A DNA stretch of 40,391 nt from Candidatus Peribacteria bacterium (lineage in GTDB: Bacteria > Patescibacteriota > Gracilibacteria > Peribacterales > Peribacteraceae). Shown in pieces: positions 2,246 through 39,059 of this stretch. A model generated the notes under the pieces. That model worked only from the letters and a program-made list of their open reading frames with translations. It was not told the origin of the DNA and did not search any database. A program made the position numbers and the translations under genes. Position 1 is the first letter of the stretch; each line of letters opens with the position of its first letter. The stretch spans positions 1-40,391 of the forward strand of contig VGKY01000007.1 in assembly GCA_016866875.1 (NCBI GenBank), read 5' to 3'.

Positions 2246-2301
2246 CGATGCGGAGTGTACTGTTGGGTTGACAAGCGTCAAGGGCAAACGCTGCGCGCGT
2301 C

Positions 2302-3576
2302 CTATCGCCATCGACTGCGACCACGACTGCGACTGAAGCTCCTCCGCCGTCCGTGGTGCGCGGGGGTACCGCCGGCTCTGCGCTGCTGCCGATCGCGCTC
2401 GCGCTGCCGGTGCGGCTGGAGCGGGCGGTGCGGACGATCGCTCAGGGCAACGGACGCTGCATGGTGTCTACGCTTGAGAGGGATGCGCACGAGTCGCTCG
2501 ATGCTGCGGATGTCTGAGGCTTGATCGGGTGTAGCAAAGGAAATCGCAAGCCCCTCGCGTCCGGCACGCCCAGTGCGACCGATGCGATGGACGTAGTCCG
2601 CGGCGTCATCGGGCAGGTCGTAGTTGATGACGACCGCGATGCCGGTGACGTCGATGCCACGCGCGGCAATGTCTGTAGCGACGAGTACGCGGTACCTACC
2701 GGACTTGAAGCCCGACAGTGCCTCCTTGCGCTGGTTGAGGGATCGATTGGCATGGATTTCGGCGGCAGAGAACTGGTGCTCGCGGAGAATCCGCGTGATC
2801 TTCTTCGCTCCGTGCTTCGTACGGGAGAAGACGAGGACCGAGCCCCCGTGCTCGCGAAGCATCTGCTCAAGGAGCATCTGCTTGTCCTCCTTGCGCACGA
2901 TACAGAGCTCCTGCTCCACTTTGGCGGCCGCAGTGCCAGGCGGGGCAACCTCGATCCGAAGCGGCAAGTGCATCTCCTTGGTTGCAAGCTCGAGGATCTC
3001 TCTGGGCATGGTCGCGGAGAAGAGCATGGTCTGCCGCGTTCTCGGCACATGCGCGAGGATGCGGTCGATCTGTGGCTTAAATCCCATGTCGAGCATGCGA
3101 TCGGCTTCGTCGAGAACGAGGATGTTCACTTCCTTCAGGGAAATAGTACGCTGCTCCAGGTGATCATTGAGGCGGCCAGGTGTGGCGATGAGCACCCGCG
3201 GGTTCCTGCGCAATGCAGTGCGTTGCTTGTGCATGGGCTCGCCGCCGACAAAGACTACGATGCCGATGCCGAGCGTGGAGGCGAATGGCCCGAGCGCCTC
3301 TCCCACTTGAGCCGCAAGCTCGCGTGTGGGAAGGAGTATGAGCGCACGACCTGGGCGCATAGCGAGCTGTTGGAGCATGGGAAGCCCGAAGGCAAACGTC
3401 TTTCCCGTTCCCGTCTGCGCGATGCCGATGACGTCCTTGCCGGTAACGGCGATGGGGATCGCCTGATGCTGGATAGGCGTGGGCATCGTGATCTTCTGGC
3501 GCGTGAGCTGAGCGAGGATCTGAGGGGTCAGCCCGAGCGCGGGAAACCCCTGGGCCGGTTGTGGTTCTGTATGCAC
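2302..3576 (-). CDS. DEAD-box ATP-dependent RNA helicase (RhlE-like)
   Basis: This 424-residue helicase unwinds RNA duplexes, probably in ribosome assembly or RNA turnover. Visible motifs in order: Q-motif region FPALGLTPQIL with TPIQHQAIP, Walker A AQTGTGKT (53-60), PTRELA, TPGR, DEAD (156-159), SAT (187-189), and near residue 330 HRIGRTGRAGR. The last 60 residues are a basic Arg/His/Gln-rich tail ending in an RS-rich stretch, as is common for RhlE-type RNA-binding tails. It is the first gene of a minus-strand group with homospermidine synthase. It is divergent from the copper operon, sharing the 106-base region 3577-3682. Confidence 0.93.
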   Translation of the reverse strand: MHTEPQPAQGFPALGLTPQILAQLTRQKITMPTPIQHQAIPIAVTGKDVIGIAQTGTGKTFAFGLPMLQQLAMRPGRALILLPTRELAAQVGEALGPFASTLGIGIVVFVGGEPMHKQRTALRRNPRVLIATPGRLNDHLEQRTISLKEVNILVLDEADRMLDMGFKPQIDRILAHVPRTRQTMLFSATMPREILELATKEMHLPLRIEVAPPGTAAAKVEQELCIVRKEDKQMLLEQMLREHGGSVLVFSRTKHGAKKITRILREHQFSAAEIHANRSLNQRKEALSGFKSGRYRVLVATDIAARGIDVTGIAVVINYDLPDDAADYVHRIGRTGRAGREGLAISFATPDQASDIRSIERLVRIPLKRRHHAASVALSDRPHRPLQPHRQRERDRQQRRAGGTPAHHGRRRSFSRSRGRSRWR

Positions 3577-3628
3577 GCGCAGAGCATAGCGGAAATTTTC
3601 GCATGTGCGAGCGAAATGCCCACATTCC

Positions 3629-3656
3629 TTGCGCGGAGGATACCCAGCACTATACT
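3629..3656 (+). promoter_or_regulatory. Predicted promoter of the copper operon
   Basis: A TTGCGC box at 3629-3634 and a TATACT box at 3651-3656 are separated by 16 bases and lie 27 bases upstream of the repressor ATG. Three TACCCC-type half sites follow directly (about 3657-3677). CsoR operators typically contain TACCCC opposed to GGGGTA; here only the C-rich halves are present, so an operator role is a guess. Confidence 0.45.
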
Positions 3657-3682
3657 ACCCCTACCCCCTACCCCTACACTTC

Positions 3683-3949
3683 ATGCTCCCCGCAGCGCAG
3701 AAGAAATCCCGCGATGCCATCACGCGCATGGACGGGCTCCTCAAAAAGCTCTCGCTCATGGTTGACGAAGGCGCCTACTGCCCGAAGATGCTCGAGATCG
3801 TGCTCGCACTGCAGGGGCACGTCGACTACATGCAAGGAGTAATCCTCGAAAGCCACCTACGCACCTGCGCGGAGAAGAATCTCCGCTCGAAGCAGAAGGA
3901 AAAATTCATCGAGGAGCTCCTCATGGTCATCGGACTTTCCACGCGTTGA
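3683..3949 (+). CDS. csoR: CsoR-family copper-sensing repressor
   Basis: This 88-residue all-helical protein belongs to the CsoR/FrmR (DUF156) metal-sensing repressors, which release DNA on binding Cu(I). The copper ligands of CsoR are Cys-His-Cys with spacings of 25 and 4 residues. Here they are C33, H58 and C62, with exactly the same spacing, so copper rather than formaldehyde or nickel is the likely signal. I chose the ATG at 3683 because it begins the conserved region ([20 protein letters not shown]); longer versions run into a C-rich repeat. Its stop lies two bases before the ATG of the copper ATPase, so the genes are co-transcribed and probably autoregulated. Confidence 0.92.
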
Positions 3950-3951
3950 CC

Positions 3952-6288
3952 ATGAAAACCATCCTCGCGATCACCGGCATGCACTGCGCGAGCTGCAGCG
4001 CTCTCATCAGCCGGAAGCTCAAGGAGACTGCGGGTGTCGAGGAAGCGAATGTGAACCTCGCTGCGGCGAAGGCGAGCATCCGCTTCAATCCTGCTGAAGT
4101 GAATGAGCAGGGCCTCATCGCTGCTGTAGAGGCCGCAGGATTCGGTGCGAGTATCGCCGATGAGAAAGATCGAGAAGCCGAGAAGAGGCGGCGGGAAGCA
4201 GAGATCGTAAGTTTCCGTCGCAAGTTCTGGATTGGTCTTTTCTTGAGCCTTCCCATGCTCGGATTCATGGTACTCACCTATATTCCCCACACCGCGTTCC
4301 ACGATGCCGTGCTGCCCTCTATGGGTATCATCTCTCTGACTCTCGCCACCCCCGTGCAGTTCTGGCTTGGGTACGGCTTCTATCGCGGCATGTGGTCGAG
4401 TGTGAACATGGGCACATTCAACATGGACAGTCTCATCGCCATCGGCACGTCCACTGCCTATTTCTACAGTCTCTGGAACTTCGTTGATCATGTCGTCACA
4501 GAAGGAACGGTGATCGGCGAGATGCACAATCTCTACTTTGAGGTTGCTGCCTTACTGATCACCTTCGTGCTCCTCGGCAAATGGCTGGAAACGCGAGCGA
4601 AAGGGAAAACAGGTGAAGCGATCCAGAAGCTGATGGGGTTGCAGGCGAAGACCGCGCGCGTGCTCCGTGACTCGCAGCAGATCGATGTTCCCATCGAAGA
4701 AGTGCAGGTCGGCGATTACATCATCGTCCGCCCCGGCGAGAAGATCCCCGTCGATGGCACCGTAATCAAGGGTTTGTCATCCGTGGATGAATCCATGCTC
4801 ACAGGTGAGAGCATTCCGGTAGAGAAGAAGGAAGGCGATCGTGTCTTCGGTGCCACGATGAACGGCCATGGCAGCATCGAGTTTCGCGCCGAGAAAGTCG
4901 GAGCAGAGACAGTGCTCGCGCAGATCATCCGCTTCGTGGAGGATGCACAGGGTTCCAAGGCACCTATTCAGGATTTCGCGGATTGGGTTTCTTCATGGTT
5001 CGTTCCAGCGGTAATTGGCGTTGCGATCCTGACGTTTGTCACATGGATGCTGCTTGGGGAATCCGTGACCTTTGCACTGCTCGCATTCGTCTCCGTCATG
5101 GTGATCGCATGCCCCTGCGCGCTGGGGCTTGCGACCCCCACGAGCATCATGGTCGCAACAGGGAAAGGAGCGGAGCTGGGAATTCTGATCCGTGGGGGAG
5201 AGCCGCTCGAAGCAGCGAAGCACATCGATACCATGGTGTTTGACAAAACGGGAACGCTCACCAAGGGAAAGCCGGAGGTGACGGATGTCCTCCCCGCCGT
5301 AGCGGAGAGCCGCGGCTCTCCGCTACGAGGAAACGATATCCTTCATATCGCCGCCTCTCTCGAGCAAGGATCCGAGCACCCGTTGGCCGAAGCCATCGTT
5401 CGTCATGCCGCAGCAGAGAGCTGCGGCTCTCTGCTGCGTTCCGTCGAATCCTTCAAGGCGATCCCCGGTCACGGCGTGGAAGGAATCATTGATGGCAAAA
5501 AATATGTACTGGGCAACAGGAGATTGATGGAAAAGATGCACATTGCATTCTCCCATGTTGAATCCGCATTGCAGGAACTTGAGAAAGCCGGCAAGACAGC
5601 AATGCTGCTCGCAGACGACCAGATCCTAGGAATCATAGCCGTTGCAGATACGCTCAAGAAAACATCGAAGGATGCTGTCGCTATGCTCAAGAAGATGCAC
5701 ATCGATGTCCTCATGATCTCGGGGGATAACGAGCGCACCGCGCGCGCCATCGGTGCACAGCTCGGCATCGACCGCGTGCGCGCCGAAGTTCTTCCTGAAG
5801 ACAAGGCGGGGGAGGTCAAATCGTTGCAGGATGGTGGAAAGCACGTCGCGATGGTCGGCGATGGCATCAATGATGCTCCGGCGCTCGCACAAGCCCATCT
5901 CGGCATCGCGATGGGATCGGGAACAGATATCGCCATGGAAACCGGCGGCATCGTTCTGGTGAAAAATGATATCGCTGATGTGGTGACGGCGATCAAGCTC
6001 AGCCGCGCGACCGTGAGCAAAATCCACCAAAACATGTTCTTTGCGCTCTTCTTCAATGTGATCGGTATTCCCATTGCGGCGAGAGCATTCCAGCATTGGG
6101 AAATTATCCTGCGACCGGAGCTTGCAGGACTTGCGATGGCATTCAGTTCCGTCTCTGTCGTGACAAATGCGCTCCTGCTCAAAGGGTTCCATCCGCACAA
6201 GAAGAACTGGCTCTCCGACTTAGCGCCAATCATCATGACCATCGGCTTCACGGCACTCTTCCTCAACTTCGCCCGGCTAAGCTCTTGA
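3952..6288 (+). CDS. copA: Copper-exporting P1B-type ATPase (CopA-like)
   Basis: This 778-residue inner-membrane pump exports Cu(I) using ATP. Domains in order: one N-terminal heavy-metal domain with the GMHCASC motif (C12, C15); membrane helices; the actuator TGES region; the membrane ion site CPC (387-389); phosphorylation site DKTGTLT (D431); the SEHPLA motif (H476); and the hinge GDGINDAP. All catalytic residues are present. I chose the ATG at 3952; an overlapping TTG at 3946 is less likely. Two related 30-bp palindromes are translated inside the nucleotide-binding domain (residues about 449-459 and 486-496, giving AESRGSPLR and AESCGSLLR), flanking the SEHPLA region. They preserve the frame. 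Confidence 0.95.
5298..5327. repeat. Intragenic 30-bp perfect palindrome (copy 1)
   Basis: A perfect inverted repeat centred between 5312 and 5313, with arms starting CGTAGCGGAGAGCCG. It is read in frame within the ATPase gene. It resembles the copy at 5409-5438: same length, same reading phase, and arms differing at a few bases. Confidence 0.9.
5409..5438. repeat. Intragenic 30-bp near-perfect palindrome (copy 2)
   Basis: The arms CGCAGCAGAGAGC and GCTCTCTGCTGCG are exact complements around a centre TGCG with one mismatched pair. It begins 111 bases (37 codons) after copy 1 and is in the same reading phase of the copper ATPase. Confidence 0.88.
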
Positions 6289-6340
6289 CACTCCTCAAGA
6301 CAGATTGCCCCAATCTTCCTATCCCCCTTCCCCCATCCCC

Positions 6341-7102
6341 ATGCGCACTGCAACACTCCTCATCGCTACTGCTCTCATCACCCTTACAGGATGCACCCCT
6401 ACCGGCTCACATCGGATGGACAACGGCATGAAGCATAACGAAATGATGATGGGCGGAAACCCAGACCTCCGCTTTCAAGAAGACCAGGGCGAGTCGACAT
6501 TGGATCTTGCATTTTCCATCCGCGACCATGGGACGGTCTTCACGGACTTTGGCGTAAGTCATACGAAGGAAATGCACCTCATCGTTGTCCGAGATGATCT
6601 TCAATACTTCCAGCACCTGCACCCCGAGCGTGATAAGCGGGGTATCTGGCATGTGGACTTCCAACCAAAAGCAGGAGGAACGCACTGGCTCTATGCGGAC
6701 TTCGTGGACAGTGCCGGTGACGTGTACATACTCCGGGAGGAGAAATCCTACGTTGGTGATATTGGACGGCATGGCATCGCACAGAACACTCAGACCGTGA
6801 AATCGTTTGATGGATATCGTGTTGAATTTACTCCTACAGTGGAGGACGGCGATCTCATCCTTCGCTATACGATCATCGATCAAGAAGAGAACCCCGTCCG
6901 TCTTCAGACATATCTCGGTGCAAAGGGGCACAGCGTTCTCATCTCTCCTTCAGGCGATTTCATTCACACACATATGGAGGAAGGTGATGAACCCGTCTTC
7001 AGGACGCCACTTCCGAAAGATGCTTTCTACCGTGTCTTCACCCAATTCCAGATCGAGGGGACGGTGATCACGACGGATTTTGATTGGCAGATTCCTTCCT
7101 AA
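6341..7102 (+). CDS. Predicted copper-operon lipoprotein, His/Met-rich
   Basis: This 253-residue protein has a lipoprotein signal peptide ending in the lipobox LTGC (Cys18), so it should be anchored on the outer face of the membrane. A His/Met-rich stretch follows (HRMDNGMKHNEMMMGG), a likely Cu(I)-binding region. The body has conserved-looking His motifs, MHLIVV.DDLQYFQHLHPE and later GHSVLISPSGDFIHTHME, as in small periplasmic or secreted proteins found with heavy-metal pumps. I chose the ATG at 6341 because it starts the signal peptide. It follows the copper ATPase by 52 bases and probably shares its transcript. Its inferred job is to bind or buffer copper outside the membrane. No enzyme domain is recognised. 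Confidence 0.8.
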   Translation: MRTATLLIATALITLTGCTPTGSHRMDNGMKHNEMMMGGNPDLRFQEDQGESTLDLAFSIRDHGTVFTDFGVSHTKEMHLIVVRDDLQYFQHLHPERDKRGIWHVDFQPKAGGTHWLYADFVDSAGDVYILREEKSYVGDIGRHGIAQNTQTVKSFDGYRVEFTPTVEDGDLILRYTIIDQEENPVRLQTYLGAKGHSVLISPSGDFIHTHMEEGDEPVFRTPLPKDAFYRVFTQFQIEGTVITTDFDWQIPS

Positions 7103-21096: not shown

Positions 21097-23028
21097 TTAG
21101 CGTTTGCGCAAGACTTCCTTCACGTTTGGCACCTGGAGCACCGCATCGTACAAATCGCTAAAAACCTCAAAATTCGGCACTTCCAGGCGAATCTTGTACA
21201 GGGCATCTCCTGGGGGAACCGCAAAAACCTCGAATTTTGCGATGTTGACGTCCCGATTGGTGAAGCACCCGGTGATGTCGTGGATCAGCCCCTTGCGATC
21301 TTGGGCATAGACCTCGATATCTACTATGGGAGACTCTTTGTCAATAACCCGAGAACGCGGCAGCGCTCCGAGGCACTTCAATAACCGTATCAGCGGAGAT
21401 ACAGACAGGGTAAGCATGCTTCGATAGACATCAACCACCGTAGAGACGGCAACCACTCCGTTGCCGACATCGATCATGAGCGCATTAAACGAATCGTACG
21501 AAAGCTTGGTGGAAAGCTGCTGACGCATTGCATGAAGATGCAGCAGCCACCACTGAGGCATGTGGCGCTTTTGGAGCTCTTGCCTCAGCACAGAGATACC
21601 ACGATCCACCTGTGCTTCGTGCGGACTCTTCTGCAGTGACTCTTTGATTCCCTCTCTCGCATCGATGCTGCGTACCTTCTCCACCCACATACTGCGCATG
21701 TCCGTTCCTCCGTTTCTCTGCAACATAAGCTCCACGATGTCCCCCTCATGGAGCACGTGTGACGCCTCGTAAAATTCTCCGTTGATGCGGATACCGGTGA
21801 GATACGAGAGATGTTGGGGATTGAGCGCAAAGGCAAAGTCGACACCGGTAGCATGCTGAGGCAAGGTGATGATTTCCCCTGAGACCGTAAACACATTCAT
21901 CCGCTCTAGGAGAACGGTTTTATGAAGATCCTCAAGGTACTCGTGATGATCCGCTCCGGTAAGATGGAGACTATCGAGAGCACGATTAACATCGTTGTTC
22001 GGATCCTGCACCCAGGAAGAAAGCTTCCTCCGTGAAGCGTGCTCTTCCATGGACACTGTTTGGATCCGCAGCTTCAGCAAATGCTTCTGGGAAAGGAAAA
22101 TCATTGTATGGAGAGCGCGGTAACCGTTCGGCATTGGCGCGCTGATCAAATCGCGAAAGGATCCGAGGTGCACAGAGTACTGCGCGTGAATTTCCCCAAG
22201 CACCCTGTAGCAATCGATCGGCGTAGCTCCCTGTCCGGTGATGAGGACGGATACGGAGTCAATATTCTCCACGTCCTGCAAACGGTGGAGATTGCCCTGA
22301 AGTTTGTTGAAGATCTCGTAATCCGTCATGGGGATGAGACGCGCAACCACTTCATCGGATGTTTCGGAATTGACGCGCTGTACGAATGCCATGCGCTCTC
22401 CCTGAACACCGGAGCGCTCTTTTGCAATTGCCGCATGCCACTGTGCGCATTCCTCAGGGTAGGCAATGGCAAAGCACACTTCTTCAAAACGACTTTTCAG
22501 CTGCCAGAGCCCCATGAGGCGTGCGAATGGGACATAGATATCTAGCGTTTCCATGGCGACGCGCTGCCGCTTGTCTTCCTGTAGTCCATCAATGGTTTCC
22601 ACATTGTGCCAACGATCAGCAAGCTTGATGAAGATGACCCGAAGATCCTGGTTTGCGGAAAGGAGCATTTTTCGGAGCGACGCCAACTGTCGCTCTTCGC
22701 GGCGACCCTCATAGTGAAATTTCGTGAGCTTCGTAACGCCGTCGACAAGCATGGCGACTGTGGCGCCAAACTCCTGCTCGATCTGTTCCAATGTCGCACA
22801 CTCATCCTCCACGGCATCGTGAAGAAGCGCAGCCACCAGAGTATCGCGCTCGGCCTCGAGAGAAGCCAGAAAGCCTGCTACGGCAATAGGATGCTCCACG
22901 AAAGGGACACCCGAATCGCGCGTCTGACCTGCGTGCCATGCTTTTGCCCTCTCCATGGCACGCAGCACTTCCGTGCGATCGTCTGCGTTGAGATAGTCAA
23001 TCGCCGCCGGGAAAGAGCGCTGCTGCAT
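21097..23028 (-). CDS. RelA/SpoT-family protein (RSH), probably hydrolase-type
   Basis: A 643-residue cytosolic (p)ppGpp enzyme. The HD hydrolase domain is intact: HP at H46, HDAVED (70-75) and ADRWHN (N142). A synthetase-like domain follows with GSFRDLISAPMPNGYRALHT, but the usual RxKxxxSI segment reads TDYEIFNKL, and the catalytic Glu of the ExQIRT motif is replaced (KLRIQT), so synthesis is likely lost or weak. TGS (FTVSGEIITLPQHATGVDFAFAL) and ACT (IDIEVYAQDRKGLIHDITG-like) domains complete the long-RSH layout. I chose the ATG at 23028; a GTG at 23067 adds 13 residues. The gene lies between two unknown genes on the same strand. Confidence 0.9.
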   Translation of the reverse strand: MQQRSFPAAIDYLNADDRTEVLRAMERAKAWHAGQTRDSGVPFVEHPIAVAGFLASLEAERDTLVAALLHDAVEDECATLEQIEQEFGATVAMLVDGVTKLTKFHYEGRREERQLASLRKMLLSANQDLRVIFIKLADRWHNVETIDGLQEDKRQRVAMETLDIYVPFARLMGLWQLKSRFEEVCFAIAYPEECAQWHAAIAKERSGVQGERMAFVQRVNSETSDEVVARLIPMTDYEIFNKLQGNLHRLQDVENIDSVSVLITGQGATPIDCYRVLGEIHAQYSVHLGSFRDLISAPMPNGYRALHTMIFLSQKHLLKLRIQTVSMEEHASRRKLSSWVQDPNNDVNRALDSLHLTGADHHEYLEDLHKTVLLERMNVFTVSGEIITLPQHATGVDFAFALNPQHLSYLTGIRINGEFYEASHVLHEGDIVELMLQRNGGTDMRSMWVEKVRSIDAREGIKESLQKSPHEAQVDRGISVLRQELQKRHMPQWWLLHLHAMRQQLSTKLSYDSFNALMIDVGNGVVAVSTVVDVYRSMLTLSVSPLIRLLKCLGALPRSRVIDKESPIVDIEVYAQDRKGLIHDITGCFTNRDVNIAKFEVFAVPPGDALYKIRLEVPNFEVFSDLYDAVLQVPNVKEVLRKR

Positions 23029-23071
23029 GGAAACAGCAGCGTACCACACCTCACGGCCGTTCAACACACGG

Positions 23072-23445: not shown

Positions 23446-23474
23446 GTTATACTATGCATCCTCGTGCCATAGGT
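23446..23474 (-). promoter_or_regulatory. Predicted promoter of the RSH operon
   Basis: On the minus strand TTGACC is followed after 17 bases by TAGTAT, shortly before the ATG at 23434. On the plus strand the same spot holds TATACT (23448-23453), a possible -10 for ileS, but without a good -35 box. Confidence 0.4.
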
Positions 23475-23573
23475 CAACGAATCCGCAGGGATTTTTCGGG
23501 TACAAAAACAGTCCAGAGTTCTGCGCCCCAGGATGCCAATGATGATCCGAGCTCCCCTGACGAAAGGAGCAAA

Positions 23574-26500
23574 ATGCCCTACACTGCCTTTCGCATGTTC
23601 GATCCCGTCGACCCTCGCCAGTCCTTCCCCGCCCTCGAGCGCGGCATCCTCACCTATTGGAAAGAGGAGGACATCTTCAAGCGCAGCATCAAGCAGCGAC
23701 GGCAGATGCACGGGGACATCCTTGAGCGAAGCAACGAAGAAACGAAGAAACGAAAAACTTCAACCTACTCGTTTTACGACGGCCCCCCCTTTGCGACCGG
23801 CCTCCCCCACTACGGTCACCTCCTCGCCGGCACCATCAAGGATGTGATCCCACGGTACCAGACGATGCGCGGCTTCAGTGTGCAACGAAGATTCGGTTGG
23901 GACTGCCACGGACTCCCCATCGAAAACCTCGTAGAAAAGGAGCAGGAGCTCAAAAGCAGAAAGGACATCGAAGCTATGGGCATCGCCGCATTCAATGACC
24001 TCTGTCGCGGATCCGTGCAGCGCTACGCAAAGGAATGGCGCACGACTGTCGAGCGCATGGGGCGCTTCGTCGACATGGACTGGGACTACAAGACGATGGA
24101 TGCCAATTTCATGGAGTCGATCTGGTGGGTGTTTGCCGAGCTCTGCAAGAAGCAGCTCATCTACGAGGGCCACAAGCCGATGCACATCTGCCCACGCTGC
24201 GCGACTCCGCTCAGTAACTTCGAAGTGACGCAGGGGTACCGCGATCGCACGGACATGTCCGTCATCATGACGTTTCCGCTCCGTGATGATCCCAATACCA
24301 TTCTCCTCGCGTGGACCACAACTCCTTGGTCACTCCCCGGAAACTTCTGGCTCGCCGTAGGTTCGCACGTCACGTACGCCGCAGTGGAGAGTGAAGGAAA
24401 AACGTACATTCTCGCAGAAAAACTTGTGGCAAAAGTGTTTGGAGACAGAGAGCACACCATCGTCCGTACGCTCAAATCTTCTGAGCTCGTCGGCAAGCGC
24501 TACATCCCCCTCTTCCCGTACTTTGAAGATACGGTCTTGGCATCGACTGCAGGAAGCAAGAAGCCGCAAACCTACGGGGAGCGCGTCTACAAAGTCATTG
24601 AGAATGCTGCAGTCGCCGTGAGCGACGAAGAGGGCACAGGTATCGTGCACCTTACGTCGTGTACCGGAGAAGACAGCTCAGCCGTCGCGCGCAGTGAAAA
24701 GGTCGATGTCCTCGCACACATCACAATCGACGGAAATTTTATTCCAGCTGTAACCGACTTCTTCGGACGGAATGCCAAACCAGAGGGAGACGACCCGATG
24801 GCAACGGACAAGAAGGTCATCGAAGTCTTAAAAAAGCATGATCGTTCCTTCGGGGCATTCACCATCAATCACAGCTACCCACACTGCTGGCGCTGCGACA
24901 CGCCACTCCTGCCCTTCAGTACGAGCTCCTGGTTCGTCGCCGTGGAGAAGATCAAGGAAAAGCTCCTAGGCAACAACGCCAAAACGCGCTGGGTGCCCGA
25001 TCACGTGCGCACGGGACGGTTCGACAAGTGGCTGCAAAGCGCCCGCGACTGGGCCATCTCCCGCAATCGTTATTGGGGAACACCGTTGCCCATTTGGAGA
25101 AGTGAGGAAGGAAGGAATGGAGAAAAAGGGCAAATGGAAGTCATCGGATCACGCGATGACCTGATGGGCAAATGCCAGATCCGCTTCACGAAAATTTCCG
25201 TGCTGCGACATGCCGAGAGCGAAGGCAACACGATCCCGATCTACCAGGGAAGTCTTCCGGGAACGTCCCTCACCAAACGCGGCAGAGAGCAGGCCAAAAC
25301 TGCGGCGGATTTTATCGAGCAAACGAACAAACCAACAAACGATCCCGTCGCGGTGATCTACACCTCCCCCCTCGCCCGCACACAGGAAACGGCGGCCATC
25401 ATCGCGAAGGCCACGGGAGCAAAGATCATCGTCGACGAGCGGCTGAGAGAAGTTTCCTTCGGCGAGTACGAAGGCAAGACCGTTGACTTCACCGATCTCT
25501 CATTCGTGAAGGCTCGCCGAGCCCACAAGATTGAAACCGGACGTCCTGAGAGCATCTACCACCTCGACGGTATGGAGACCTGGAGCTCCGTCCAGGAACG
25601 CATATCGGATTTCCTGCGCGAAGTCCTACCGCGACACCGCTCCGAGCACGTCGCCATCGTCACGCACGCAGATCCCCTCGTAAATATCCGAGCGTTCTTC
25701 ACGCGCGAGGATGCGTTGAAGCTCAGCCATCAGCCCTACCCCGACTTCGCGAGTCCCGAGAGCTTTTTCTGGGACCACGACCATGAAGCGCAGATGGATC
25801 TGCACCGCCAGACAGTAGACGGTGTGACATGGAATGGCACCCCCAGCAAGGGGCGGAGTGTCGAGATCACGATCGTGCGCCACGGGCAAACTGACTGGAA
25901 CCGCGACGGCATCATGCAAGGGCAAGAAAATCGAGGGCTGACGGATCTCGGAAAAGAGCAGGCGCTGGCAACCGCGAAGAATCTCAAGCGCAAGCACTTC
26001 GACGGCATCGTGACTTCCGACCTGCGCCGCGCGAAGGAAACTGCGGCGATCATTGCGCAGGAACTTGGATTGGAGATCATCGAAGAATCCGCACTCTTGC
26101 GCGAACGCCACATGGGCGACTGGCAAGGCAAGACCCTGGCAGATTGCCTGCGCGACTTCCCTCTCGCGATCGAAGGAGGCGAGGACGGCATGACACACCA
26201 CTCCCCTCCTGGCGGAGAAACACTCTCGCAGTTTCTGCGGCGTGCGGAGATCGCCCATGAACACTTGCTCGCACGCTATCCCGGCAAGAAACTGATCGTC
26301 GTCAGTCACGGAGGGTTCATTCGTTCGCTGACAACGGCTGTCGAAAATCTCTCCTTTGTGGAGGCAGTGCAGGTACGCCCGAACAATGGAGAGGTGACGA
26401 TGCTGGCGCTGCATCCACGATTGCGCCGCATTCCCGAAGTGCTCGACTGCTGGTTCGAAAGCGGCTCGATGCCCTATGCGCAGGCGCACTATCCATTCGC

Positions 26501-28055
26501 GTTCTCACACGCGCAACAGGGATCGGCGCTGAGCGGTCGGCGATCAGTCGCCAAGCTTCCCGCTTCGTTCCCCGCCGACTTCATCGCCGAAGGCATCGAT
26601 CAGACGCGCGGGTGGTTCTACACGCTCATGATCCTCGCGACGGCACTCTTCGACGAGCCGGCATTCAGGAACTGCATCGTCAACGGCATCGTGCTTGCGG
26701 AAGATGGGAAGAAGATGAGCAAGCGCCTGAAGAACTACCCGGAACCCACGGAAGTCGTCGAGCGCCATGGCGCGGACGCCGTGCGCTTCACCCTCATGCG
26801 CTCCCCCGCCGTACGGGGCGAAGACCTGCGATTTTCGGAGAAACTCGTCGAAGAGACGGTACGCGGCGTGATCCTGCCGCTGTGGAACACCTATAGTTTC
26901 TTCGTCACCTACGCGAACGCCGCGGGGTGGCGCCCTGTGGAAACGCGCAGGCACTCCAGTCACCCCCTCGACCAATGGATCCGCGCCGAGATCCAAGATC
27001 TGTGCAACCGCATGACCAAGCAGCTCGATGCCTACGATCTCTCCGCCACCTGCGTTGAGCTCGGAGACAGTATCGATGCGCTCACCAACTGGTACGTCCG
27101 TCTCTCGCGCAGGCGCTTTGCGGGGAAGGGCGCGCTCGAAGACGAGGAAGCGAGCGGTGACCTCGAGCGCGGAGCGCAGCACGATGCGCTCTGTACACTC
27201 CACGATATCCTTCTCACCCTCTCGCAGCTCCTCGCTCCGTTCTGCCCGTTTGTCACCGATGCCATCTACCTCAACCTCATTTCTGAGGAGCACGGATCGG
27301 TGCACCTCACCGACTGGCCGGAGGCACGAAAGATGACGGAAGACGAGCGAAGCCTCATCGCCAAGCACGGACTCCTGCGCCTCATCGTTTCTCTGGGAAA
27401 CTCCATCCGCGCACGCAACAAGATCAAGACACGCCAGCCGCTTGCAAAGGTCACCGTTGCTATCCCCTCAGGCATCGCCGATGTAGCGCTCACAGAAGAA
27501 GATCACCAGCTCCTCGGCCAGGAACTCAATGTGAAAGAGATCTCCCTCGTCAAAGATCCTGGGTCGCTCGCCCAAGCAGTCGCCCTCGTGGATGCACGCA
27601 AAGTCGGCCCCCGGCTAGGAAAGCGCGTACAGGAGGTGATCGCCGCAGGGAAGCGCGGGGAATTTGCAGTGCAGCAAGACGGATCTGTCCTCATCCTCGA
27701 TGAAACACTTTCTCCCGCGGAAGTGCAGATCCAGTACCGCGGCGCCGAGGGAACGGATGTCGCATGCGACCGGGGCATCGTCGTTGCACTCGACACGACG
27801 ATCACGGAAGCCCTCACTCGCGAAGGGCTCGCCCGCGATCTCATCCGTTCTGTCCAGAAGCTCCGCAAAGACGCAGGATTGGCCTTCACCGACCGCATCG
27901 CCCTCGCCGTCACCGGCCTCGATGATGTTGTGGAGGCCTTCAAAGGCCCCATCGCAGAAGAGACACGGGCAGAGTGGAAGGAGAATGATGGAGAACAACA
28001 CGAAATCGTCATTGAAGACAAAACTATTTTCATTCAATTTCAAAAACTCTCATAG
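23574..28055 (+). CDS. ileS: Isoleucyl-tRNA synthetase (type 2) with two inserted histidine-phosphatase domains
   Basis: A 1493-residue class I synthetase that charges tRNA-Ile; relatives are about 1000-1100 residues. The HIGH motif is HYGH (79-82) in PPFATGLPHYGH, and KMSKR is at 1047-1051, both intact; the type 2 (eukaryotic-like) form is suggested by these and by DCWFESGSMPYAQ. Two insertions lie in the catalytic core. Residues about 540-735 form a phosphatase with RHAE (H546), SPLARTQETA and a second His (H698). The synthetase then resumes briefly (MDLHRQTVD, about 741-750), and residues about 763-940 form a second with RHGQ (H770), SDLRRAKETA and SHGG (H912). The start is set by AAAGGAG six bases before ATG 23574. 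A short AACGAAGA microsatellite (23733-23756) is translated before the HIGH motif. Confidence 0.93.
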   Translation: MPYTAFRMFDPVDPRQSFPALERGILTYWKEEDIFKRSIKQRRQMHGDILERSNEETKKRKTSTYSFYDGPPFATGLPHYGHLLAGTIKDVIPRYQTMRGFSVQRRFGWDCHGLPIENLVEKEQELKSRKDIEAMGIAAFNDLCRGSVQRYAKEWRTTVERMGRFVDMDWDYKTMDANFMESIWWVFAELCKKQLIYEGHKPMHICPRCATPLSNFEVTQGYRDRTDMSVIMTFPLRDDPNTILLAWTTTPWSLPGNFWLAVGSHVTYAAVESEGKTYILAEKLVAKVFGDREHTIVRTLKSSELVGKRYIPLFPYFEDTVLASTAGSKKPQTYGERVYKVIENAAVAVSDEEGTGIVHLTSCTGEDSSAVARSEKVDVLAHITIDGNFIPAVTDFFGRNAKPEGDDPMATDKKVIEVLKKHDRSFGAFTINHSYPHCWRCDTPLLPFSTSSWFVAVEKIKEKLLGNNAKTRWVPDHVRTGRFDKWLQSARDWAISRNRYWGTPLPIWRSEEGRNGEKGQMEVIGSRDDLMGKCQIRFTKISVLRHAESEGNTIPIYQGSLPGTSLTKRGREQAKTAADFIEQTNKPTNDPVAVIYTSPLARTQETAAIIAKATGAKIIVDERLREVSFGEYEGKTVDFTDLSFVKARRAHKIETGRPESIYHLDGMETWSSVQERISDFLREVLPRHRSEHVAIVTHADPLVNIRAFFTREDALKLSHQPYPDFASPESFFWDHDHEAQMDLHRQTVDGVTWNGTPSKGRSVEITIVRHGQTDWNRDGIMQGQENRGLTDLGKEQALATAKNLKRKHFDGIVTSDLRRAKETAAIIAQELGLEIIEESALLRERHMGDWQGKTLADCLRDFPLAIEGGEDGMTHHSPPGGETLSQFLRRAEIAHEHLLARYPGKKLIVVSHGGFIRSLTTAVENLSFVEAVQVRPNNGEVTMLALHPRLRRIPEVLDCWFESGSMPYAQAHYPFAFSHAQQGSALSGRRSVAKLPASFPADFIAEGIDQTRGWFYTLMILATALFDEPAFRNCIVNGIVLAEDGKKMSKRLKNYPEPTEVVERHGADAVRFTLMRSPAVRGEDLRFSEKLVEETVRGVILPLWNTYSFFVTYANAAGWRPVETRRHSSHPLDQWIRAEIQDLCNRMTKQLDAYDLSATCVELGDSIDALTNWYVRLSRRRFAGKGALEDEEASGDLERGAQHDALCTLHDILLTLSQLLAPFCPFVTDAIYLNLISEEHGSVHLTDWPEARKMTEDERSLIAKHGLLRLIVSLGNSIRARNKIKTRQPLAKVTVAIPSGIADVALTEEDHQLLGQELNVKEISLVKDPGSLAQAVALVDARKVGPRLGKRVQEVIAAGKRGEFAVQQDGSVLILDETLSPAEVQIQYRGAEGTDVACDRGIVVALDTTITEALTREGLARDLIRSVQKLRKDAGLAFTDRIALAVTGLDDVVEAFKGPIAEETRAEWKENDGEQHEIVIEDKTIFIQFQKLS
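23733..23756 (+). repeat. AACGAAGA tandem repeat inside ileS
   Basis: Three consecutive 8-base units (AACGAAGA twice, then AACGAAAA) encode a charged insert (NEETKKRK) between the first helix and the HIGH motif. Three 8-base units total 24 bases, so the frame is kept. Confidence 0.75.
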
Positions 28056-32497: not shown

Positions 32498-35400
32498 TTA
32501 CTTCATCGGCCACCCACCATGCTCCTCAATCACTGCATCAATCTCCTGCATGAAGCGAATGGTTTCACGTAGGGAAACAACGATTTTCATGTAGTGCTTC
32601 AGATCATCGGTCGAAAGTATTCTTTCTGCCTTCTTGCGATCTTTCAGCCACTTCTCACACACCTGATACCCGCCGATCATGAATTTCCATACCTCTTTTT
32701 CCACTCCTTCGAAGTATTGCCCAGCATTTACGTACACGCGCCCTTCTTTCTCTTCATATCGCACCTCTGCAACTTTCCAATCCTCAAAACCATTCGGGCA
32801 CTTGCCACCAATTTTTACATTCCACTCTTTCGGCTCATCGAAAATGGTTTTGGAGGAATCAAACGGATTCTCGCCAAGAAGATGCAGATTCACGAGCAGA
32901 TTACCGTGTTGCACAAGCACCCTGAAGAGCTTTGTATTTGAAGTGAGCGGCAGCCGTGGGAAATCAATTTTAAGCTGCGCTGAATACCGCTTGCGGTATT
33001 CAGGGCTGTGGAAGATTGCATAGATATAATAGAACATTTCTTCTGGACGGGGAGTCATTCCAAGCTTGTCGGAGAAGTCTTTTACAAATACTGGATTTAT
33101 ATTTGACTCTCTTTCAATTTCGCCAAGAAGATTTGTTTGAGTAGTTTCAGGATAAATATAAAGTGGAAAACTGGAACTAGAATCTCCTGCATTATCCAAA
33201 ATATGAAAATCTGTTATTTCTTTTGAAACAAAGAAATATCCCAAACTTGCCTGTCGATTAACTTTTGATGCAACTAATCCCAGATTGGCTGCAGAAAGAA
33301 AATTCTTCATTACTCTAATTTGCGGACTGGCAAAAATTCCTCTCGAGTTTCCTGTGTAAAAAGTGAATCGTTGGTCAAAAGGGCGATATAGGCACTTTCT
33401 TACGAATTCTTTTTTTAAATTTTTTACAACATCTTTTTTAGCTGTTGGCACCGTCCAGTCCCTCGCATCTTTTGATTTCAATCCAAAGTGACTTCTTATC
33501 TCGTGTTCATTTTGCTCAGCCATAAATGAAATGTTGTTCCATATTCCTTCTTGATCAAAGTCAATCGTGATTTTATCCTTGCCTGTTACAAAGCCTGCAG
33601 TGTTAACAGAAAAAATATTATTCACTTGCCAATATTCCTCATACTCCCCACTTCCTCCAAACTTCTTGTTGGTAAAGAAATAATATTGTTTTTTTGGCTG
33701 CAATTCTTCCCACTCTAATGCTTCGAAAAATGTCTCCAGCAAATATGAGAACTTTTCTGATTTTAAACCATACTTATCTTTATAAAATACCCTACACCCT
33801 TGCTTCTTTTTTTTCTTTACGAAGAAGGTAATGCATGTGCCTGTCTGGATATTGAAAATACTCTCATCCCTTCCTCCGCCCGGAGCAGCATCTTTCTTCG
33901 TCGTGCTGCCGTGGAGGTTGAGACAATATATCTCATCAAACTCCTCCATCAGCTGATATCGCATTCCGCGAAAGGTCGGATTATCCAGAAAGCCGTTATT
34001 GGTGATCATCGCCACAATTCCTTCACCGGCTTGCGCAATCTTCCACTGCGAAAAACGAATAAACTTCACATAATCATCGCCGAGCCAATGCTTTTTCTCT
34101 TTGAAGTGTTTACCAGTGATTCTATCGCCCTCTGTATATTTGTAATCTTCAATTAAATTACCAATCCATGTTTTTTCTTTCCTTTTCATGTCTTTAGTTG
34201 CTATAGCAGCCTGTCCTTTAGCATTCGTATAAGTATTTCCCTTACTGTACTCAACAATCACTTCTACTGGATTCTGTGAAATGCCGGAATATGGCGGGTT
34301 TCCTATCACCGCAAGAATTGGCGTGTCTCGTTTTACCGTTTGAGCTTTTTCTGACTCTTGTGGAATAGCATCGAAACCAAAAAACGCCTCTGGCGGTCTT
34401 TTTGGATCATCTAGCGTATTTGCCAGATATACCTTGAAGCGATCGTTATCCGGATCGGTATCATTCTCGGTCGTTTTGAAATCAAAACCAAGTCGTTCAG
34501 CCTCGAGCGTGAGCTTGAGATGCGCTACGGCATAGGGGGCAATGAGGAGCTCGAAGCCATAGAAGTGCTTGAGGATATGCTCCTTTGTAATCTTACTGAA
34601 TTCCCGCTTCACCATCTCCTTGCCTAGCGCTTTGTTTTTCTTCTGCACATTCCAGTAAATCTGTTGCATAGCAGACATGAGGAATGTGCCTGTTCCCGTC
34701 GCCGGATCGAGGAGATTCACGGAGTGATCTGCAAGTCCTTCTTCTTTGCCAAACTTATTCTTCACCAACCAGTCCACTCCCCGCACGATAAAGTCCACCA
34801 CGGGTTTCGGCGTGTAGTACACACCCCGCCCTTCTCGCTCTGCTGGATCGTATTCGGAAAGAAACGGTTCGTAGAACTGAATCACAGGGTCTTCTCCAGG
34901 CTTGTGCTCTATGAGTTTTTGCCTGATGCGGTGCATATCCGCGCGGTTGAGCTCCTCCAAGAGCGCGATTGCCGCATGGTGGGCGTTTGGCACCTTCTTC
35001 GCGATCCGCGAAATAAGACCAAAGAGATCGGAGAGGATGGGGACGTTCTTTGGCAGGTAGTCCACGGCATTTGTGAGTGTCAGTGGCTCATCCTTTCCGC
35101 GCTCATCATGTTCTAGACAAGCGAGGAAGAGCGAGTAGGCAATCGTTTCAGCGACCATGTTCGCGAATTGGTGGTCGGAGATGTCGGCAATGAGCGTTTT
35201 TTCAAACGTTGCACGCAAACGGACCAGCTCGTGTTCTTTATCTTCCTCCTTGATCGCTGCTGCCAAAGCCTCCTCCACCTGCCGCGAAAGGAATCGCGCT
35301 TTGCGGGCGAGCGTAAGGGCAAGTTGCTTGGGTGTCTTCGCAAGTGTCGGTTGATACTCGAAAAAGTGCACCAGCATCTCCATCAGTTCCTTCAGGTCTT

Positions 35401-35821
35401 CCGCTTCCTTTTTCGTAAGATCAAAACTAACGCGCTTTATACGCTTGGGCTTCTCTTTGTCGCTCCTGTCCCACTGCCATAGTTCCCACTCCTGCAGATT
35501 GGTGAAGATGACGTTCTCCAGAGAGCTCTTGTACTTCAAAAACTGCTCTGCATACGACTGATGATCCAGTGGTTTTCCGGGGAGCTTCACCTCGATCCAT
35601 CCTGCAATTTCTTTGCCGTAGCGCACGGTAATGTCCGGGAAACCTATCTCCGACTCTATGGCGCTCTCCTCAGCGGTCGCTTCCACGCCCTTGAGATGGA
35701 GAGGCTCCTCCGTCGCCAGTTGTTCCAGCCACACGCAAAGTGGCTTGTAGAGTGTGCGTTCCGTTCCGTCCTGAAGGAGGCGCGGGAGCTGCTTGCAAAG
35801 AATATCGGTTGCCTTGGGCAT
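32498..35821 (-). CDS. Type-ISP/IIG-like restriction-modification protein (adenine methyltransferase with nuclease domain)
   Basis: A 1107-residue single-chain DNA enzyme. The N-terminus is a PD-(D/E)XK nuclease-type domain: FPD (61-63) then GWIEVKLPG with E77 and K79. The methyltransferase part carries GRGVYYTPKPVVDFIVR, the SAM motif LDPATGTGTF (371-380) and catalytic NPPY (508-511) for N6-adenine. The C-terminal 500 residues match the target-recognition region of type ISP enzymes (KLGMTPRPEEMFYYIYAIFHSPEYR). There is no helicase within it; instead a SNF2 helicase gene lies just upstream, its TGA one base before this ATG, so they are translationally coupled. The region 33100-34250 is clearly more AT-rich than the rest of the gene. 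Confidence 0.9.
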   Translation of the reverse strand: MPKATDILCKQLPRLLQDGTERTLYKPLCVWLEQLATEEPLHLKGVEATAEESAIESEIGFPDITVRYGKEIAGWIEVKLPGKPLDHQSYAEQFLKYKSSLENVIFTNLQEWELWQWDRSDKEKPKRIKRVSFDLTKKEAEDLKELMEMLVHFFEYQPTLAKTPKQLALTLARKARFLSRQVEEALAAAIKEEDKEHELVRLRATFEKTLIADISDHQFANMVAETIAYSLFLACLEHDERGKDEPLTLTNAVDYLPKNVPILSDLFGLISRIAKKVPNAHHAAIALLEELNRADMHRIRQKLIEHKPGEDPVIQFYEPFLSEYDPAEREGRGVYYTPKPVVDFIVRGVDWLVKNKFGKEEGLADHSVNLLDPATGTGTFLMSAMQQIYWNVQKKNKALGKEMVKREFSKITKEHILKHFYGFELLIAPYAVAHLKLTLEAERLGFDFKTTENDTDPDNDRFKVYLANTLDDPKRPPEAFFGFDAIPQESEKAQTVKRDTPILAVIGNPPYSGISQNPVEVIVEYSKGNTYTNAKGQAAIATKDMKRKEKTWIGNLIEDYKYTEGDRITGKHFKEKKHWLGDDYVKFIRFSQWKIAQAGEGIVAMITNNGFLDNPTFRGMRYQLMEEFDEIYCLNLHGSTTKKDAAPGGGRDESIFNIQTGTCITFFVKKKKKQGCRVFYKDKYGLKSEKFSYLLETFFEALEWEELQPKKQYYFFTNKKFGGSGEYEEYWQVNNIFSVNTAGFVTGKDKITIDFDQEGIWNNISFMAEQNEHEIRSHFGLKSKDARDWTVPTAKKDVVKNLKKEFVRKCLYRPFDQRFTFYTGNSRGIFASPQIRVMKNFLSAANLGLVASKVNRQASLGYFFVSKEITDFHILDNAGDSSSSFPLYIYPETTQTNLLGEIERESNINPVFVKDFSDKLGMTPRPEEMFYYIYAIFHSPEYRKRYSAQLKIDFPRLPLTSNTKLFRVLVQHGNLLVNLHLLGENPFDSSKTIFDEPKEWNVKIGGKCPNGFEDWKVAEVRYEEKEGRVYVNAGQYFEGVEKEVWKFMIGGYQVCEKWLKDRKKAERILSTDDLKHYMKIVVSLRETIRFMQEIDAVIEEHGGWPMK

Positions 35822-35822
35822 A

Positions 35823-38800
35823 TCAGGAGATGCGGAAGTGAAGGGTGAGGAGTTTCTCTTCGGTGATAGTCAGTTCCAGCTTACTCTTCAATGTTCGTAA
35901 TTCCGTGTCGCGATCCGCGAATGCTTGTTCTTGCGCTTCGAAGTACTTCTTCTGCACCTTAAAGTAGTCTTTCTGCTTTTTGTCTATCTCGTCGCGCAGT
36001 TCCCGTCGCTCGTGTGCACCCATCGTGCGGGAGATTTTGAGCTGGCGCTCGAGTGTCTTGATCTCTTCATCTTTCTCCTCCATCTCTCGCTTGATCTTGA
36101 GCAAAGTGTCCTGCGCGTACTGCTGCAAAAGCGCGCGTTGGCGGTCAACAAATTCTTCGTTCTTATCGATGACGCTCTGTTTTGCCTGGTCCAGGTCACG
36201 CAGGAGTTGATCGGCAAGATCATCGCGGATGCGCGCCGTTTCTTCCACTGCTCCTTGCCACTCCATGAGGGACGGGTCCAAAAGCTGCTCCAAGAGTTTG
36301 CGGTTTCCGAGGATCTTCCAGCCGTCGCCTGTCTTCACGATGCCGGAATACACGAACTCTTCAAATAACTCACGGTTCTCATTGCCAATGACGCTCTGAT
36401 GCTCGCAACGGAGGCGATGCACGACGATCTGCCCTTCTGTGCCGCCAAGCTGCTCTACGCTGCGCCTGCCAATAGCATTGAGGGGCTTCAGCTCCACTTT
36501 CGCAGTGAGATCGTTTCGCACTCTATCCTGCTGCAATGCCCCCTTGAGAATTTCTGCACGCGTAGAGAGAGGGATGACACCGCTGTCCTGCTCCTCTATG
36601 GGAACCGTACCGATACCGTAAATTGCACTGAAGCATGTCTCCGAAAGTTTGGGCGCATCTTTCCATTTCTTCGTTTCGATAGTAAAACGACCCTCTGCAA
36701 TCTCCTTCAGTGCCCCGCCCAAGAGGCAGGTCGCATATGCCTTGATGTGCCTGTCATAACGCGTGAGTGCGTCGGTGACATTTGCATCACGCAGACGCAG
36801 CTTCTGCCGTACTTCTTCATCAAAGTGCTGAATCACTTTCGCTTTCGCATGCTCCAACTTCTCGGCGATTTCATTCTGCAGTTGTTTCTGGAGTTTATCG
36901 AACTCGGCTTTGATCTCTTTTTCCGTACGGAATTTGCGCAGAATTTCCAGTATTTTCATTTCGAACCCGACACCGCTATCTAGTGAACCGAGCGCGATTT
37001 CACGCACTTCGTATCCGTCATCCGTCTGCACCTCCGTTCCCAGAATCTTGTCACTGAAGTTGAAGAGATTGCCGAAGAGCCTGATTTTCTCCTGCAGAAG
37101 CTCATACACGCGCCTGTCAGCATAGTTACTCTGATTGAGGAAATTGACGACCAGGACATCGTGCTGCTGCCCGTAGCGGTGGCAGCGACCGATGCGCTGC
37201 TCGAGGCGCTGCGGGTTCCACGGAAGATCGAAGTTAATGATGACATTCGCAAACTGAAGGTTTAGTCCTTCCGCGCCTGCTTCGGTAGTAATCAGTATTT
37301 TGCTTTCCGGCTGCTTGAACTTCCACACAAGGGCACGACGCTGATTTACCGCCTTACTGTTCTGTTCGGCTTCTTTAGGAAAGTGAGTGCACCACTCCAT
37401 GTACGTTTGCTGTGCTCGCTTGGATGCGTTCGATCCATTGAATAGTACAATACCGTCCCCGAATCCATTCTGCATCAATAGCTTCTCCAGATAATCCTGC
37501 GTTCTCCTTGATTCCGTGAAGATCACGGCTTTGTCTGGCCAACCACGCTTCTGGTTTACTTCAAATACACGATCAAGCGCCTTCAACAACGCTTGCCCCT
37601 TTTCATTCTTACGGATGGAACGCGCGAGAAAGAGATACGAAAGAACATATGAATATTCTTCCTGCACCTCCTCTTCCGTGAAAACGTGATCAATTTCTCG
37701 TTCTTTATGCACTTCTTCTGTGTCGTCGCATTTTGCCTCCTTACTGTCTTCATCTTCTCCCAGATCATCGGTCTGCTCTGCCTCCTGATCAAATATCACT
37801 TCTCCAGCTTCTTCGGCAAGCTTGTCTTCACTCAATTCGAGATCATCCAAAGCAATTTGAAGCTGCTGCGGCTCTTCTACTTTCTTTGGCTCTGCCTTTG
37901 CAATCTGGAGTGCTTCGATTTCAACCTTTCTTTTACTATTCACACTCGCATGAATCCGATCACACGTAGACTGCAAATCGCTGAGCGATACCTTGAAGTC
38001 TTGCTGGAGTTGCTTCGCCAGTCCTTGCGCGACATTTTCCAATGTACCAGCAATGGCAAAGGAGGAACTCGCAAGAATTTTGCGATACACCAACTCCATC
38101 ATGTTTCGCTGAGTTGCACGTGTGGATGCAAGAAATGGACGCGCGAGGTATTCGCTAATGCCATTGTATAGTGCAATTTCCACATTCTCCGGTTCAAAAT
38201 CTTCGGTAATACAGTGTCTATTCGTGAATTGAACGATATCCCGAACCTGCATTCGCAACGTTCTTGTGAGGACACCACCCTCTGTCTCGCCTGTCTCAGA
38301 ATTAATGGTGCCCATGAGTCGCTGGCGTAAATCTTCCAAGTTTCCGTTGGCATTGCTGCGTTTTTGATAGAGCACCTTGTAGGAGTAATCCGTTCCAAGA
38401 ATTTTGGAATCTATGAAGCTCACCAGCCCATACAGCTCCATCAGGTTATTCTGCAATGGTGTTGCAGTTAGAAGAACTTTGGGTCTGCCTTCGATATGGT
38501 CACGCAAACGCTTCGCAACCTTATTCCCTTTGCGATAAACATTGCGCATACGATGTGCTTCATCAATGACTACCAGATCCCATTTCGTGTTCTTCACATA
38601 AGCTTTGTATTTCTCCGCCGCACCGAAGTGATGCGATGCGATGAATATTCCACCGAACTCAAACGGGTTGAACGTCCCACTTTCAGCAAACTCGTTTATC
38701 AGTTTATTGAGCTTTGGCCCGTCAATAAGAGTGGATTCAAGACCAAATCGATCTTGTAATTCTTCCATCCACTGTGTGCGGAGGGAAGCCGGCACCAAAA

Positions 38801-39059
38801 TGAGAATCTTGTTCCTGCCTTCTACCCATAACTGATTGATGATAAGCCCTGTTTCAATCGTTTTCCCGAGCCCGACTTCATCCGCAAGAATCGCGCCTCT
38901 GGATAATGGGCTGTTGAACGCAAAGATAGCGGCGTCTACCTGGTGTGGATTAAGGGTGACATTTGCTGAACGGATGGATGAATTGAGTTTTTCTGGATCA
39001 TGAAGTGGGTGTTTACGGGTCAGCAGACTGGCCAAATAGGAACGTTGTAGATGTGACAT
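35823..39059 (-). CDS. SNF2/RapA-like helicase of a defence module
   Basis: A 1078-residue superfamily 2 ATPase. The N-terminal lobe has LNPHQVDAA, Walker A DEVGLGKT (60-67), VPASLRTQW and DEAH (166-169); LLTATPLQNN is motif III. An acidic, Glu-rich insert with Lys patches precedes the second lobe, which shows ITTEAGAEGLNLQFA and QRLEQRIGRCHRYGQ. The C-terminal 350 residues include long coiled coils (about 930-1050, KREMEEKDEEIKTLERQLK). No nuclease domain is seen. It probably moves along DNA for the coupled methyltransferase-nuclease. The ATG is at 39059 with a promoter nearby. The pair resembles DrmD and DrmMI of class 1 DISARM, but drmA, drmB and drmC are absent here. Confidence 0.88.
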   Translation of the reverse strand: MSHLQRSYLASLLTRKHPLHDPEKLNSSIRSANVTLNPHQVDAAIFAFNSPLSRGAILADEVGLGKTIETGLIINQLWVEGRNKILILVPASLRTQWMEELQDRFGLESTLIDGPKLNKLINEFAESGTFNPFEFGGIFIASHHFGAAEKYKAYVKNTKWDLVVIDEAHRMRNVYRKGNKVAKRLRDHIEGRPKVLLTATPLQNNLMELYGLVSFIDSKILGTDYSYKVLYQKRSNANGNLEDLRQRLMGTINSETGETEGGVLTRTLRMQVRDIVQFTNRHCITEDFEPENVEIALYNGISEYLARPFLASTRATQRNMMELVYRKILASSSFAIAGTLENVAQGLAKQLQQDFKVSLSDLQSTCDRIHASVNSKRKVEIEALQIAKAEPKKVEEPQQLQIALDDLELSEDKLAEEAGEVIFDQEAEQTDDLGEDEDSKEAKCDDTEEVHKEREIDHVFTEEEVQEEYSYVLSYLFLARSIRKNEKGQALLKALDRVFEVNQKRGWPDKAVIFTESRRTQDYLEKLLMQNGFGDGIVLFNGSNASKRAQQTYMEWCTHFPKEAEQNSKAVNQRRALVWKFKQPESKILITTEAGAEGLNLQFANVIINFDLPWNPQRLEQRIGRCHRYGQQHDVLVVNFLNQSNYADRRVYELLQEKIRLFGNLFNFSDKILGTEVQTDDGYEVREIALGSLDSGVGFEMKILEILRKFRTEKEIKAEFDKLQKQLQNEIAEKLEHAKAKVIQHFDEEVRQKLRLRDANVTDALTRYDRHIKAYATCLLGGALKEIAEGRFTIETKKWKDAPKLSETCFSAIYGIGTVPIEEQDSGVIPLSTRAEILKGALQQDRVRNDLTAKVELKPLNAIGRRSVEQLGGTEGQIVVHRLRCEHQSVIGNENRELFEEFVYSGIVKTGDGWKILGNRKLLEQLLDPSLMEWQGAVEETARIRDDLADQLLRDLDQAKQSVIDKNEEFVDRQRALLQQYAQDTLLKIKREMEEKDEEIKTLERQLKISRTMGAHERRELRDEIDKKQKDYFKVQKKYFEAQEQAFADRDTELRTLKSKLELTITEEKLLTLHFRIS

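Follow-up and report, generated by a model that had tools for sequence, protein, structure and literature searches.

Two histidine-phosphatase domains nested in the type 2 isoleucyl-tRNA synthetase of a Candidatus Peribacteria bacterium

The isoleucyl-tRNA synthetase (IleRS) gene, ileS, of a Candidatus Peribacteria genome carries two separate histidine-phosphatase (HP) domains, HP1 and HP2, inserted in frame within an otherwise intact synthetase, and each retains its full set of catalytic residues. The gene lies in the window, the 40,391 nt stretch of contig VGKY01000007.1 (assembly GCA_016866875.1) that was analyzed, and its features are listed in Table 1. Nested HP domains proved to be widespread, occurring also in valyl-tRNA synthetase (ValRS), which goes beyond what the window alone shows.

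The ileS gene and its two nested domains

The open reading frame spans 23454-28055 (+) and comprises 1533 codons with zero internal stops, in agreement with the unbroken frame of 4.5 kb described in the original prediction. Translation likely starts at ATG 23595, giving a predicted protein of about 1486 aa, because the aligned IleRS of relatives all begin with MFDPVDP (MFDSVDP in one), which corresponds to Met48 here. Residue numbers of the window IleRS are counted from ATG 23454. The genome is 1.12 Mb in size and 98% complete, and this ORF is its sole IleRS; other PF00133 matches, found in separate genes, are taken for sister class I enzymes. Fragments matching PF00133, possibly ValRS, are present at the ends of two of its contigs (G000, contigs C32 and C34). 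Upstream of ileS, on the opposite strand, is a RelA/SpoT homologue (HD, RelA_SpoT, TGS and ACT domains) at 21097-23067 (-), with a 120-aa ORF between it and ileS, and further downstream a type ISP restriction-modification-like protein (PF18135, N6_Mtase) adjoins a SNF2-type helicase at 32498-39059 (-).

Table 1. Features of the ileS gene and its inserts; positions are those of the window.
Feature	Position	Strand	Basis
ileS, probable CDS	23595..28055	+	ORF opens ATG 23454; conserved start MFDPVDP at 23595
HYGH (class I HIGH) motif, residues 119-122	23808..23819	+	sequence, domain match
Insert 1, HP1, residues ~577-780, between VIGSRDDL and MDLHR (site S1)	25182..25793	+	Pfam, junction alignment, AF2 domain model
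HP1 catalytic R585-H586 (RHA form of RHG motif)	25206..25211	+	sequence
HP1 second catalytic His H738 (VTHADP)	25665..25667	+	sequence
IleRS sequence between inserts: MDLHRQTVDGVTW + short linker	25794..25853	+	junction alignment
Insert 2, HP2, residues ~801-990, hairpin before RRIPEVLDCWFESG (site S2)	25854..26423	+	Pfam, junction alignment, AF2 domain model
HP2 catalytic R809-H810	25878..25883	+	sequence
HP2 second catalytic His H952 (VSHGG)	26307..26309	+	sequence
IleRS core resumes: RRIPEVLDCWFESG	26424..26465	+	junction alignment
KMSKR motif, residues 1087-1091	26712..26726	+	sequence
Anticodon-binding domain PF08264, residues 1173-1332	26970..27449	+	Pfam
C-terminal DUF5915, residues 1354-1531	27513..28046	+	Pfam

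The protein scores 762 bits against TIGR00392 (ileS), above the cut-off of 621, and its Pfam domains are tRNA-synt_1 (in two pieces), two His_Phos_1, Anticodon_1 and DUF5915. The best matches among solved structures are the human and yeast cytosolic IleRS and the IleRS2 entries (1.1e-211 to 1e-173), while the remaining bacterial IleRS structures, including 1ffy of S. aureus, match at 2e-77 or weaker. By these comparisons it is assigned to the type 2 (eukaryote-like) and not the type 1 (S. aureus-like) enzymes; background on type 2 IleRS is given in PMC10485003 and PMC4861432. The HYGH and KMSKR motifs are intact, as had been claimed, and so are the CP1, anticodon-binding and DUF5915 regions, all of which the protein has in common with type 2 IleRS such as IleRS2 of P. 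megaterium and the human and yeast cytosolic enzymes. It differs from them in that two histidine-phosphatase domains break the segment ahead of the second half of the HUP core, and alignments to solved type 2 IleRS stop at residue 552 and restart at 985-990. Junction alignment with insert-free IleRS indicates that the core is complete save for the short loops replaced by the inserts. With its motifs intact, and as the only IleRS of the genome, the protein is predicted to aminoacylate tRNA-Ile.

Both inserts match PF00300 (His_Phos_1; cut-off 21.7 bits), HP1 at 25200-25694 (E=1.5e-33, 115.3 bits) and HP2 at 25866-26423 (E=9.2e-51, 171.5 bits). All five catalytic residues are present in each, namely R585, H586, R642, E666 and H738 in HP1, and R809, H810, R859, E884 and H952 in HP2. 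The catalytic histidines had been correctly picked out beforehand as H546/H698 and H770/H912, in a numbering that starts from Met41. The description of two separate domains also stands: MDLHRQTVDGVTW (residues 781-793) lies between them and aligns to a continuous DLH..VD segment of insert-free IleRS, and the core restarts at RRIPEVLDCWFESG. According to the junction alignment, HP1 is placed between IGS..EL and DLH, and HP2 in a hairpin between VDxIxW and RIPEVLDCWFESG. On the model of insert-free IleRS the insertion points are positions 492-494 (HP1) and 504-513 (HP2). In P. megaterium IleRS2 the second half of the HUP core covers 513-632 (PMC10485003). The original prediction had located the domains in the catalytic core; the inserts themselves are borne out, but their location is better stated as the connective segment that leads directly into the second half of the HUP core. 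Since insert-free IleRS align through both junctions, it is ruled out that HP1 and HP2 are an ordinary part of all IleRS proteins, an objection raised when the domains were first noticed.

A confident AF2 model of HP1, linker and HP2 reached a pLDDT of 85.6 and a pTM of 0.83, from only 13 sequences, and its 50 best PDB matches all have the histidine-phosphatase fold (among them GpgP Rv2419c, PhoE, PspA, TIGAR and phosphoglycerate mutases). The model of the full catalytic region was poor (pLDDT 67, pTM 0.45), and confidence in the core was too low for geometry.

Distribution, conservation and history of the inserts

A search of related genomes recovered the same layout in most of the 57 Ca. Peribacteria family members, which carry both inserts. 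A minority (G009, G012, G013, G016, G026, G033, G039 and G047) has HP1 only, and in two of the 57 (G010 and G046) no IleRS-embedded HP match was found. Among the matches listed, genomes with the in-frame two-insert layout number in the dozens and come from many projects, some being near-complete and on a single contig, and an assembly chimera, which had been named as a way in which the prediction might fail, is therefore ruled out.

Elsewhere in the class, HP domains are found in IleRS at S1, at S2, in the loop at 542-547 and at 671-673 after KMSKS. IleRS of ordinary length occur in class families f4, f16, f18, f21, f22, f148 and f149, and some class genomes have IleRS with in-frame TGA codons. 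Many CPR IleRS are without any insert, and for 287 genomes drawn from across the phylum the IleRS frames listed were mostly 950-1080 aa long. Twelve unusually long IleRS were fetched, 11 of them from outside the class, and ten contained HP, nine of those being from outside the class. Nested HP probably has more than one origin.

All five catalytic residues (R-H-R-E-H) are retained in 136 of 145 distinct nested HP domains. The nine exceptions chiefly concern the Glu of ValRS and alanyl-tRNA synthetase (AlaRS) copies, along with a few degenerate or incomplete copies. Pairwise dN/dS was 0.05-0.15 for HP1, 0.09-0.29 for HP2 and 0.04-0.24 for the core, values that refer only to comparisons where dS could be estimated, several others being saturated at synonymous sites. 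Purifying selection acts on HP1 as it does on the core. The suggestion that the inserts are tolerated, in the sense of being inert, is disfavored by this conservation and by the core-like dN/dS of HP1.

In the HP tree, the window HP1 groups with S1 domains from the IleRS of other CPR (f1 S1 clade, 100/100), and HP2 falls in a different part, beside free-standing HPs. HP1 and HP2 are likely to be of separate origin, short of proof because the deepest split of the tree is weakly supported (69/86). The ValRS copies form one clade (100/97) with the AlaRS copy of G079 inside it, and the copy in UvrB of G063 has as its sister the copy in the IleRS of that genome (100/98). Among relatives lacking the insert, no free-standing gene was found as a clear sister of a nested domain. 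Relocation from a free gene was considered for family f9 and found no support, the free 191-aa HPs of G064 and G405 not being sisters of the nested f9 copies.

Within the genus of the window, L008 pairs with L010, and L009 with L011, by core and by HP1, a grouping that HP2 does not share. Sequences with about 83-88% identity in the flanking core are as little as 48-49% identical over HP2, and for HP2 the grouping of the core is rejected by the AU test (p <= 6e-4). HP2 has therefore been exchanged as a unit within this genus. The CP1 editing domain was also apparently swapped between Peribacteria lineages (L014/L016, L021/L023 and L031/L034), its aa identity falling from about 90% to 34-44% and recovering in the flanking core. 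In another member of the genus (L047, G003:C39), the IleRS gene is divided between frames, which part at the HP2 boundary and apparently also at a second point upstream of HP1, either through sequencing error or because it is a pseudogene.

Other hosts, other passengers and known phosphatases

Twenty-four class genomes were scanned whole for HP domains in frames longer than 1000 aa, hosts being assigned by motif, sequence and Pfam. There were 34 nested HP domains: 22 in IleRS, 10 in ValRS, and one each in AlaRS (L071) and UvrB (L067). No further large HP hosts were seen in these 24 genomes, and none of the domains was in LeuRS. ValRS carries up to three HP copies, as in L070 (G079:C86, 1000-5298 (+)), where two of the three are in tandem. 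The AlaRS of the same genome, a class II enzyme (L071, G079:C95, 3797-6982 (+)), has an HP insert whose nearest relatives in the tree are ValRS inserts. The UvrB protein (L067, G063:C69, 3561-6935 (+)) holds two mid-protein inserts, one an HP domain and the other an RBBP9-like serine hydrolase.

Other small enzyme domains are carried as passengers, each more rarely than HP: GNAT (L060, L133, L151 and L152), NUDIX (L066 and L086) and RBBP9-like serine hydrolase (L086 and L067). A single IleRS, L086, holds serine hydrolase, NUDIX and HP, and GNAT occurs together with HP in the relatives L060, L152 and L133. The last of these is an IleRS of 1805 aa (1185-6599 (+)) with GNAT, HP and additional inserts, one of them a weak MuF_C-like match. 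In L141 and L142 (G062 and G083) an IS200-like Y1 transposase (PF01797) sits in the CP1 entry loop of IleRS, at model position 255. An IleRS with an extra small enzyme domain is recognized as a model class in NF040702 (ileS_w_GNAT), and the window IleRS resembles it in this respect, but the extra domains are phosphatases and not GNAT, and it scores only 224 of 1999 bits against that model. The bifunctional RNase H/acid phosphatase NF005567 likewise joins an HP domain to a nucleic-acid enzyme; its phosphatase lies in the C-terminal half (profile coordinates), which looks like an end-to-end fusion and not like an insert placed within a catalytic region.

HP1 and HP2 share their fold and catalytic residues with branch-1 histidine phosphatases such as PspA, GpgP Rv2419c, PhoE and the alpha-ribazole phosphatase CobC, but those are free-standing proteins. 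When scored alone, each domain was below every NCBIfam equivalog cut-off, so that no named substrate can be assigned. The closest approach was HP2 against ribazole_cobC (130 of 163), and scores fell short of the PspA, CobC and GpmB cut-offs. HP1 scored 98 of 225 bits against dPGM_arch, below the level for a 2,3-BPG-dependent phosphoglycerate mutase. The idea that nested HP supplies a missing glycolytic mutase is rejected as a general explanation because of separate genes: a free dPGM-like one in the window genome, and those for iPGM-size PF01676 enzymes in other nested-HP genomes (G057, G088, G093, G075, G209, G072, G061 and G091). No clear separate mutase was seen in G063, G079, G077 and G081, and in those four genomes the nested HP may have this role.

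Possible roles of the nested phosphatases

The reading that we favor, with modest confidence, is that a functional type 2 IleRS harbors, in permissive loops, two phosphatases that are autonomous and catalytically competent. Each insert would be a complete, self-folding branch-1 domain occupying a surface loop of the connective segment, so leaving isoleucylation working, and would act on a phosphomonoester substrate of its own through a phospho-His intermediate, with the synthetase serving as an always-expressed carrier. We infer enzymatic activity for both halves, independence of the phosphatase from aminoacylation, and loops that are permissive and exposed at the surface. Such docking is favored over a coupling specific to HP because unrelated enzyme domains sit at IleRS loops. 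Earlier proposals, that the domains proofread a phosphorylated substrate or control the synthetase, are weakened as general explanations, since GNAT, NUDIX, serine hydrolase and IS200-like transposase domains share the IleRS loops and the same phosphatases are also found in AlaRS and UvrB.

A purely permissive-loop model alone does not predict that two sister enzymes with editing function, IleRS and ValRS, should account for 32 of the 34 nested copies, and a coupled role therefore keeps some weight, though on balance we find it doubtful. The phosphatases would then act on something that the synthetase produces or holds, in quality control, repair, regulation or drug resistance, and the candidate targets, as tentative as the role itself, include AMP, a damaged or 3'-phosphorylated tRNA end, an aminoacyl-nucleotide inhibitor and the phosphorylated synthetase. 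Besides the host bias, to which AlaRS adds another editing synthetase, coupling is consistent with the conservation of catalytic residues at every site and with inserts that adjoin the second half of the HUP core, and exchange of the HP2 cassette within the genus would fit a changing specificity. It accords poorly with UvrB as a host, with the unrelated passengers in IleRS loops, with the many CPR IleRS that have no insert, and with the use of four different IleRS loops, which leaves no fixed geometry towards the active site.

Structurally tolerated inserts without enzymatic function, perhaps aiding folding, tRNA binding or dimerisation, are improbable. The faster evolution of HP2 (dN/dS up to 0.29) and the loss of catalytic residues from nine copies point that way, but the five residues are kept in the other 136 across many lineages and sites, and HP1 is as constrained as the core. 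We think it very improbable that the domains are selfish or mobile cassettes that place in-frame copies of themselves in the loops of essential genes: apparent moves between hosts (the UvrB and IleRS sisters of G063, and the AlaRS copy within the ValRS clade), ValRS with up to three copies and the exchange of HP2 between lineages are all compatible with it, but the HP domain is without nuclease, integrase or splicing function, its conserved residues argue for a benefit to the host, and ordinary homologous recombination explains the HP2 exchange, CP1 being swapped too. An assembly or binning artefact, suggested by the short contigs of draft metagenome assemblies and by the broken frame of G003, is refuted for the general layout by its in-frame recurrence across genomes and projects and can practically be dismissed.

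A further, speculative and rather unlikely proposal is that copy-moving nested phosphatase cassettes settle in the editing synthetases of CPR (IleRS, ValRS and AlaRS) and serve a translation-linked phosphatase step, for example the healing of tRNA ends or the removal of aminoacyl-nucleotide inhibitors. If true, these synthetases would be bifunctional enzymes of an undescribed kind.

No description of a histidine phosphatase inside a synthetase was found in the literature searched, which included few subscription papers; database-level annotation of the HP-in-IleRS architecture may exist, and IleRS with an extra GNAT domain is already known as the NF040702 class. The approximately 145 natural cases of apparently functional domain insertion may be of use to protein engineering. 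Few enzymes are as conserved as the aminoacyl-tRNA synthetases, yet here they appear to host complete, selectively maintained phosphatases, and essential enzymes of these small CPR genomes would thus act as carriers for other enzymes. This raises the question of whether a phosphatase step is tied to aminoacylation, or whether the loops of essential genes are safe places for small enzymes.
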